A stretch of DNA of 33,589 nt, taken from positions 1 through 33,589 of the forward strand of contig JAPOKC010000029.1 in assembly GCA_029977845.1 (NCBI GenBank), written 5' to 3'. Made by a program: the position numbers and the translations under genes. Positions 9,069 to 10,476 of the stretch are shown in pieces. Origin of the DNA: Mycobacteriaceae bacterium. GTDB taxonomy: Bacteria; Actinomycetota; Actinomycetes; Mycobacteriales; Mycobacteriaceae. The notes under the pieces were generated by a model, which was not told where the DNA came from, did no database searches, and saw only the letters and a program-made list of their open reading frames with translations. Positions within the stretch are counted from its first letter, which is position 1, and every line of letters starts with the position of its first letter.

Positions 9069-9430
9069 CCGTCACACTCTGGCTTGGAGTCATGCTGATC
9101 GGCGGGATCGGCTCGGTGTCCCGGTTCGTGGTCGACCGGGCCGTCGCGCGGCGGGCGGTTCGCTCTTTCCCGTTCGGAACCCTGACGGTGAACATCACCG
9201 GTGCGGCGCTGCTCGGCTTCATCACCGGGTTGGCGCTCAACCATCACGCCGCCCTGCTGACCGGCACCGCTTTCGTCGGCGCCTACACGACGTTCTCCAC
9301 CTGGATGTTCGAAACCCAGCGTCTCGGCGAGGAACGCCAGATGGTGCCGGCCTTCGCCAACATCGCGGTCAGCGTCGCACTCGGCATCGCCGCGGCGGCG
9401 GCCGGTCAGGCGATCGCGGGTGCCCTGTGA
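9065..9430 (+). CDS. crcB: Fluoride channel subunit CrcB/Fluc, second copy
   Basis: The 121-residue protein starts at GTG 9065, overlapping the previous stop, and keeps GGIGSVSRFVVD, LTVNITGAALLGF and FVGAYTTFSTW. Compared with the first copy it has the canonical GxxxR motif of helix 1 (GSVSR). Each subunit has four hydrophobic helices. It is the likely antiparallel partner of the first copy in one dual-pore channel. Its own stop again overlaps the next start as GTGA, coupling it to the DUF190 gene. Confidence 0.95.
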   Translation: MTVTLWLGVMLIGGIGSVSRFVVDRAVARRAVRSFPFGTLTVNITGAALLGFITGLALNHHAALLTGTAFVGAYTTFSTWMFETQRLGEERQMVPAFANIAVSVALGIAAAAAGQAIAGAL

Positions 9431-10476
9431 CGGACAAGCCTGTGAACGCGCTCAAGCTGACCGCCTACTTCGCCGAACGGCAGCGCAGCGGCGGCCGCTT
9501 CTTGGCCGAGGCGATGCTGGATCTGTTCGCACAGCGCAACGTCGCCGCGAGTGTGATGCTGCGCGGTATCGCCGGATTCGGTCATCAGCGCATCATCCGC
9601 ACCGATCAGTCCCTGACCTTGTCCGAGGACCCGTCGGTGGCCATCGCGGCGGTCGACGATCCGGATGTCATCGCCGGACTGGCCGGGGATGTCGCCGCGA
9701 TGACGGGCAGCGGACTGCTCACCCTCGAACGCACCCGCATGCTCGACGACGGCATGACACCGGCACCGATGCCCGGCGGCGCCGTCAAGCTGACCGTCTA
9801 CCTCGGGCGCAATCGCCGCCATGACGGTGTGCCCGCCTACAAGGCCCTGTGCGCGTTGCTGCACCGTCACGGCTTCGCGGCGGTGTCGGTCCTACTCGGC
9901 GTCGACGGCACCGCGCACGGACAGCGCCGGCGCGCGCACTTCTTCGGCCGCAATGTCGATGTGCCGCTGATGGTCATCGCGATCGGATCAGCGCAACAGG
10001 TGACGGCGGCCACCTCAGAACTCGCAGCGGTGATGGACCAGCCGATGGTGACGGTGGAACGGGTGCGGCTGGGCGGCCCACCCACCCTGCCGGACGCCGA
10101 CTCCCGCGGCCGACCGCTGTGGCAGAAGCTGATGGTGTTCACCTCCGAGGCCAGCCGCCACGACGGCCTACCCATCCACCGCGCGCTGGTGCGCCGACTC
10201 TGGGAGTCCGGCGCGTCCAGCGGTGTGACGGTGCTGCGCGGCATCTGGGGATTCCACGGAGACGCGGAACCGCACGGCGACAAGCTGATTCAGCTGGGCC
10301 GGCAGGTGCCGGTGGCAACCGTCATCGTCGACACCCCGAGCAACATAGCCCGCAGTTATCAGATCGCCGCAGCGCTCACCGGCCGGGACGGACTGATCAC
10401 CTGCGAGACGGTGCCGGCACTACTGGCGGTTCACGACGGCGACAGCCGCGGCGGCCTCGAACTGGCCGACACCTGA
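9427..10476 (+). CDS. Triple DUF190 (PII-like) fusion protein of the fluoride cassette
   Basis: The 349-residue soluble protein contains three tandem DUF190-type domains. They begin at about residue 9 (LKLTAYFAERQRSGG), 120 (VKLTVYLGRNRRHDG) and 234 (KLMVFTSEASRHDG). Each continues with a helix and a hydrophobic strand: VAASVMLRGIAGFG, FAAVSVLLGVDGTAHG and SSGVTVLRGIWGFHG. Each ends with a strand such as GLLTLERTRM or MVTVERVRL. DUF190 proteins are usually single domains of about 110 residues, often beside crcB, and share the PII-like fold. Because PII-like proteins assemble as trimers, the fusion could fold as a one-chain trimer; this is inference. GTG 9427 overlaps the crcB stop, so it is made with the channel and may sense or gate it. 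Confidence 0.88.
   Translation: MTDKPVNALKLTAYFAERQRSGGRFLAEAMLDLFAQRNVAASVMLRGIAGFGHQRIIRTDQSLTLSEDPSVAIAAVDDPDVIAGLAGDVAAMTGSGLLTLERTRMLDDGMTPAPMPGGAVKLTVYLGRNRRHDGVPAYKALCALLHRHGFAAVSVLLGVDGTAHGQRRRAHFFGRNVDVPLMVIAIGSAQQVTAATSELAAVMDQPMVTVERVRLGGPPTLPDADSRGRPLWQKLMVFTSEASRHDGLPIHRALVRRLWESGASSGVTVLRGIWGFHGDAEPHGDKLIQLGRQVPVATVIVDTPSNIARSYQIAAALTGRDGLITCETVPALLAVHDGDSRGGLELADT

Follow-up and report, generated by a model that had tools for sequence, protein, structure and literature searches.

A gene that overlaps the second of two fluoride-channel genes (crcB) in a mycobacterial genome encodes three DUF190 domains in one chain, and comparison with related genomes points to a single old fusion whose three sites have diverged. 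We regard the product, hereafter the triple, as a likely single-chain pseudo-trimer and a likely cytosolic regulator of the probable CrcB1/CrcB2 heterodimer, an explanation to which, taken as a whole, we give slightly less than an even chance. A role of the triple in fluoride defence is well supported, and we infer that it regulates the channel. The DUF190 domain and the crcB pair were known already; the variant seen here is the fused, unequal three-domain chain.

The gene block

The window, by which we mean the whole 33,589-nucleotide stretch that was analysed, contains the three-gene block crcB1-crcB2-triple-DUF190 at 8673-10476 on the plus strand:

7001..8635, minus strand: phosphoglucomutase/phosphomannomutase gene (PF02878-PF02880), divergent from crcB1 and 37 bases apart from it
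8673..9068, plus strand: crcB1, fluoride channel subunit, 131 aa (PF02537, E 1.5e-27; NCBIfam NF010812, 211.6 bits against a cut-off of 128)
9065..9430, plus strand: crcB2, fluoride channel subunit, 121 aa (PF02537, E 9.1e-25; NCBIfam NF010824, 191.1 bits against a cut-off of 99)
9427..10476, plus strand: triple-DUF190 protein, 349 aa, GTG start (PF02641 in three stretches, E 8.4e-63)
9454..9738, plus strand: domain D1 (DUF190), 70.0 bits
9562..9633, plus strand: D1 loop segment, residues 46-69, of the type RG..FG.....R.D..L.LSEDP
9787..10068, plus strand: domain D2 (DUF190), 73.3 bits
9895..9966, plus strand: D2 loop segment, residues 157-180, of the type LGVDGT..G.R.RA.FF.RN..VP, which differs from the canonical RG..G.G
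10126..10413, plus strand: domain D3 (DUF190), 74.3 bits
10237..10311, plus strand: D3 loop segment, residues 271-295, of the type RG.WGF.G...PHGD......R.VP

The GTG at 9065 that starts crcB2 overlaps the stop codon of crcB1 as GTGA, and the GTG at 9427 that starts the triple overlaps that of crcB2 in the same manner; the coupling of the triple to two crcB genes, proposed in a preliminary description of this DNA, is thus read directly in the sequence. In a profile search of the genome in which D1, D2 and D3 were scored separately, each passed the curated PF02641 cut-off of 23.4 bits, which places all three in the DUF190 family and bears out the earlier claim of three such domains in one chain; their starts, first put at residues 9, 120 and 234, were located at 10, 121 and 234. 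The overlaps and the PF02641 matches together rule out a chance or mis-called reading frame for the triple.

We did not count the neighbouring phosphoglucomutase/phosphomannomutase gene into the fluoride system; a homologue is present at 107 of the 111 crcB-linked triple loci described below, as against 0 of 29 unlinked ones. The window also carries a tmRNA gene (RF00023, 140 bits) at 31690-32058 and a tRNA gene at 5152-5224, both on the minus strand.

The paired channel

Both channel genes of the window pass the PF02537 and NCBIfam CrcB cut-offs. As a measure of charge we subtracted the K+R count of loops 1 and 3 from that of the termini and loop 2, with loop borders drawn by eye on the window's sequences. 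It gave +7 for crcB1, whose termini are accordingly predicted to lie inside, and -6 for crcB2, whose termini are predicted to lie outside. Across related loci, the positive excess fell on the termini and loop 2 of crcB1 in 109/109 cases and on loops 1 and 3 of crcB2 in 111/111. In a study of paired Flucs, opposite charge bias of this kind marks opposite fixed orientations, with both subunits needed; the study describes Fluc channels as being open constitutively (PMC3755343). The genes in the window resemble such pairs in being two tandem homologues with opposite loop charge bias and differ in their translational coupling to a PII-like gene. The heterodimer suggested earlier for the two CrcB subunits is therefore supported, and on their sequences we consider CrcB1/CrcB2 a probable heterodimeric fluoride channel.

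One old fusion with three unequal loops

How old is the fusion, and are its three sites equivalent? The order D1-D2-D3 is found in one open reading frame at 218 of 220 loci, which represent 190 distinct sequences, some genomes occurring in both sets; the other two loci (L067 and L267, from the same species) are interrupted by an in-frame stop. Mean identity between D1, D2 and D3 in 64 triples is only 22-24%, which argues against a recent duplication. In the conserved columns of 191 distinct triples, each domain has its own near-invariant loop signature, and the three signatures differ. The signature common to single-domain proteins of the class is RG.EG.GAS..HT.R.L.LSEDLPV, from which D1 retains the RG..FG and LSEDP parts, while the canonical RG..G.G motif is absent from D2. 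Among 36 canonical positions taken from 40 single-domain sequences, and counting a position as kept when it is found in at least half of the 64 triples, D1 keeps 11, D2 12 and D3 16, and the retained positions are not the same in the three domains. The canonical signature is thus not shared by all three, and with so few canonical positions kept an ordinary DUF190 trimer in single-chain form becomes less likely, although membership of the family is unaffected. Of 28 signature residues, 21, 23, 25 and 27 are present in the four triples known to us from outside the class, whose D1 lies nearer to the canonical form (RG.EGFG).

A tree of 72 fused domains (from 24 triples) and 20 single-domain proteins placed each group on one side of its own branch (D1, 100/96; D2, 100/99; D3, 100/99; single domains, 98/97); the program warned of few columns, long branches meeting and unsettled bootstrap, and only these four splits are used here. 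The fixed order, the distinct signatures and the separate branches together point to a single old fusion with diverged sites. The divergence of the sites foreseen in the preliminary description is thereby upheld, and, as judged from these sequences, the three loops are unequal, each under its own constraint.

Predicted structure

The AlphaFold2 model of the triple forms one compact unit (pLDDT 88.9, pTM 0.90). Given this pTM, the relative placement of the three domains is predicted with confidence, and the value fits three-fold packing in the model. Domain similarity to PII and PII-like structures was found, the structural alignments spanning D3 only; Foldseek rows outside DUF190 and PII, with a query TM near 0.2, were left unused. 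A covariation run aimed at three-fold packing reached an Neff of 127, and just 49 of its 175 top pairs were intra-domain.

The idea of a one-chain trimer is thus borne out in part, by three PII-like domains and a compact, confidently predicted chain, though less so as a normal trimer. We also considered that the domains might not close into a single pseudo-trimer at all, but form a string or domain-swapped larger oligomers with one active domain only. The loss of the canonical RG..G.G motif in D2 and structural alignments that reach D3 alone would agree with such an arrangement; the confident relative placement of the domains speaks against it, as does the D2 loop, whose conservation ranks with the highest in the protein and is in this respect unlike that of a decaying segment. 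We consider this arrangement improbable.

Distribution of the fusion

Matches to PF02641 occur in 152 of 198 genomes of the genus. Model-spanning triples are found in 139 of the 198, including G076, whose copy (G076:C2:57555-58628) has one in-frame stop; 10 genomes carry one canonical DUF190 domain, and three (G075, G089 and G135) hold broken or split pieces only, those of G075 and G089 being triple fragments. The fusion is therefore not peculiar to this genome. A sample of 151 family genomes yielded further triples, in genera g20, g26 and g27. Within a class sample of 296 genomes, full-length triples were restricted to the genus of the window (11 genomes), while a phylum-wide sample of 198 genomes yielded four full-length triples outside the class, in four families, so that the fusion is not private to mycobacteria either. 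A protein search retained 5263 of 7997 scored candidates, 120 of them being listed.

For gene neighbourhoods, 140 triple loci of the genus were examined together with as much as 8 kb of flanking sequence per side; they comprise the listed full-length rows of the genus minus G000, G166 and G052, with the broken or split pieces of G075, G089 and G135 left out. A crcB gene adjoins the triple at 111 of these loci, both crcB genes at 109 and crcB2 alone at two, and all four triples from outside the class are arranged crcB1-crcB2-triple. Other crcB-adjacent proteins with three DUF190 domains, for which the preliminary description had proposed a search, thus exist in number, and the arrangement is common in mycobacteria, a point beyond the view from a single sequence. 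Single-domain DUF190 genes of the class lie between two crcB reading frames in 43/43 loci (the best-scoring loci, two genomes being counted twice), indicating that the link between DUF190 and CrcB predates the fusion. On the other hand, crcB is present without DUF190 in 41 genomes of the genus, so the channel does not require the triple everywhere.

In the ten genomes of the genus with a single canonical domain (L004-L013), the order crcB, single DUF190, crcB replaces the triple, and a fluoride riboswitch lies upstream in two of them (G086 and G101).

Triples away from crcB

At the remaining 29 of the 140 loci the triple has no adjoining crcB, some of these loci lying on short contigs (e.g. 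L224, 9 kb), and a strict dependence of the fusion on crcB is ruled out. The unlinked copies clustered in a tree of 191 triples, with three changes of the linked/unlinked label; one of these is L043, a row of the 80-locus rather than the 140-locus set, labelled as lacking crcB since its contig starts inside D1. Because the triples from outside the class are crcB-linked, the unlinked state is likely to be derived. Two genomes (G117 and G161) hold a linked triple besides the unlinked one. In G029, a triple remnant of about 49 positions remains behind the crcB pair (G029:C1:3236640-3236795), which suggests that an unlinked copy was already there when the linked one decayed.

Conservation of the fusion independently of crcB had been named beforehand as an argument against the proposal. 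It applies in part, through these 29 loci, yet every one of the 29 genomes keeps two crcB matches. Considering the clustering of the unlinked copies, their neighbours, the riboswitches and the two crcB matches, we gave up the view that the triple is always part of a crcB operon and retained its link with fluoride.

What, then, lies beside the unlinked triples? A class I aldolase gene is found at 22 of the 29, a second enolase at four, an antiporter-type subunit nearby at three and an MFS gene at one; these groups overlap, and five loci have none of them. One crcB-linked locus, L196, additionally carries an enolase and an antiporter. These neighbours give weight to the chief rival of channel regulation, namely that the triple is a fluoride-stress protein acting on metabolism, for instance through enolase, through aldolase or through binding of a metal-fluoride-nucleotide complex, with the crcB linkage reflecting a common need. 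Enolase, moreover, is described as a classical fluoride target and as often riboswitch-controlled (PMC11139923; PMC5533749). Against this stand the linkage to crcB at 111 of 140 loci and in 4/4 triples outside the class, the linkage of single-domain DUF190 to crcB at 43/43 class loci, and the two crcB matches in 29/29 genomes with unlinked copies. We hold an action on metabolism instead of the channel to be a real but minor possibility.

At the 22 loci (e.g. L070, L089, L097 and L105), the class I fructose-bisphosphate aldolase gene and the unlinked triple are arranged tail to tail, mostly with 50-200 bases between them; the enzyme of this class is metal-free. Second enolases were seen beside triples at L096, L201, L207, L086, L234, L076 and L196; an absent enolase in G000 was disregarded, as this genome is 73% complete. 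Seven distinct full-length sequences of second enolases share 51-55% identity with two housekeeping enolases from the genus; all seven have EDG and DDN in place of the housekeeping EDP and DD[IL], the other inspected motifs being kept. The altered positions presumably adjoin metal ligands, and an altered fluoride response of these enzymes is possible.

A possible mechanism and known relatives

How might a fused PII-like protein act on a fluoride channel? A PII-type protein whose gene lies next to that of a transporter commonly binds this transporter, as GlnK binds AmtB and SbtB binds SbtA. By this analogy, the three domains would pack together in the manner of a PII trimer, and the triple, like GlnK on AmtB, would dock on the cytosolic side of the channel, where a bound small molecule, for which a nucleotide is the likeliest guess from PII-like proteins, would set conductance. 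The fixed domain order would create three unlike clefts and loops. We reason that a channel with fixed, unequal subunits may have favoured a partner with fixed, unequal loops: since a channel of fixed orientation shows one cytosolic face, such loops would fit it better than a symmetric trimer. Unlinked triples would act on the channel in trans. A role of DUF190 proteins in modulating the membrane channels beside them has also been suggested in a Pelobacter genome paper (PMC3543383).

In a more specific form, which we put forward tentatively and think rather doubtful as a whole, the triple would be a covalent, asymmetric PII-like pseudo-trimer whose loops have three jobs, matched to the fixed-orientation CrcB1/CrcB2 heterodimer. 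D1 would keep the ancestral loop type while D2 and D3 make new contacts, and in some mycobacteria the triple would have been carried into riboswitch-marked fluoride islands, alongside PE/PPE genes, aldolase, antiporter subunits and an additional enolase. The fusion may also have been selected for breaking the stoichiometry.

The nearest relatives, the DUF190/COG1993/UPF0166 proteins (PF02641; PDB 2dcl, PH1503; 1o51, TM0021), are single-domain chains of 127 and 114 aa, whereas the present chain has three diverged domains with differing D2 and D3 loop signatures. It differs from PII proteins (GlnB/GlnK) and the PII-like SbtB in being a fusion of three domains, and PF00543, the profile of PII proper, had no match in it at E up to 1. 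M. tuberculosis Rv3069-Rv3071 is likely an operon of the same kind. A search of open-licence literature for DUF190, UPF0166, COG1993 and Rv3071 found no study of the triple protein, and DUF190 together with fluoride returned other meanings such as DUF1908.

Ammonium and bicarbonate transporters are PII-type regulated; if the triple binds CrcB, fluoride channels would join them, and the asymmetry of a regulator could be tied to that of its channel. Should the asymmetric pseudo-trimer prove true, fluoride channels would gain their first dedicated protein regulator. A one-chain trimer also lets each site be removed alone, which is impossible with homotrimers.

Fluoride riboswitches and fluoride islands

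The fluoride riboswitch (RF01734) is absent from the window at the gathering score. Only 37 bases separate the start of the phosphoglucomutase/phosphomannomutase gene (8635) from that of crcB1 (8673), and no match was obtained in 8400-10700 even at E up to 10, so a hidden riboswitch before the operon was rejected. This absence is ordinary, as about 15% of Flucs are riboswitch-controlled according to a review (PMC11139923).

Under strict filters, with which weak matches are lost, RF01734 was found in 35 of 198 genomes of the genus, in 26 above the cut-off. Among the 111 linked loci, one has a riboswitch before crcB1-crcB2-triple (G175, L279:9880-9956, 41.8 bits, 55 nt ahead), as against 13 of the 41 DUF190-free crcB genomes with a riboswitch beside crcB (9 above the cut-off), a comparison uncorrected for kinship. 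Riboswitches were found at 2 of 12 named unlinked loci versus 0 of 13 linked ones. In G072 a riboswitch lies about 100 bases from the unlinked triple on the opposite strand, and in L112, a separate record, one lies about 0.8 kb from the triple and is likewise divergent; in G046, G117, G186 and G063, riboswitches over the cut-off lie 9 to 11 kb from a triple that neighbours a second enolase. Thirteen genomes have both a triple and an over-cut-off riboswitch; the two are within 11 kb of each other in six, and far apart (G071) or on separate contigs in the other seven.

These loci bear on a further reading, in which the triple is a general PII-like sensor that owes its position to gene order and has no particular connection with fluoride. 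The window, without a riboswitch, would suit it, and DUF190 is found beside other membrane proteins too according to the Pelobacter paper (PMC3543383). The recurrent association with crcB, enolase and fluoride riboswitches at separate loci argues against it, and we consider it quite unlikely.

Riboswitch-led fluoride tolerance operons, such as the Enterobacter cloacae FRM (ppaC, uspA, eno, gpmA, crcB), are a comparable known system. Riboswitches of the related genomes are similarly found near an extra enolase, a universal stress protein and antiporter-type subunits, as well as MutS-like and histidine phosphatase genes. Unlike the E. cloacae operon, the mycobacterial loci add the triple DUF190, some of their riboswitches precede PE/PPE genes, and the window itself has no riboswitch. 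The survey outlines a mycobacterial fluoride response that includes riboswitches before PE/PPE genes, for which the literature searched on fluoride riboswitches and PPE showed no match in print.

Of 30 riboswitch loci fetched, ten have RF01734 ahead of same-strand PE and/or PPE genes (L336-L340, L342-L344, L346 and L347, at about 1501-1562 of each locus), fifteen have crcB instead, and five have neither. One fluoride island (L367 with L207, G117:C2:507500-533183) contains riboswitches, a MutS domain V gene, WXG100 and PE genes and a second enolase, together with complex-I-like NADHdh, Proton_antipo_M and Oxidored_q6 genes, a triple DUF190 and an MFS gene.
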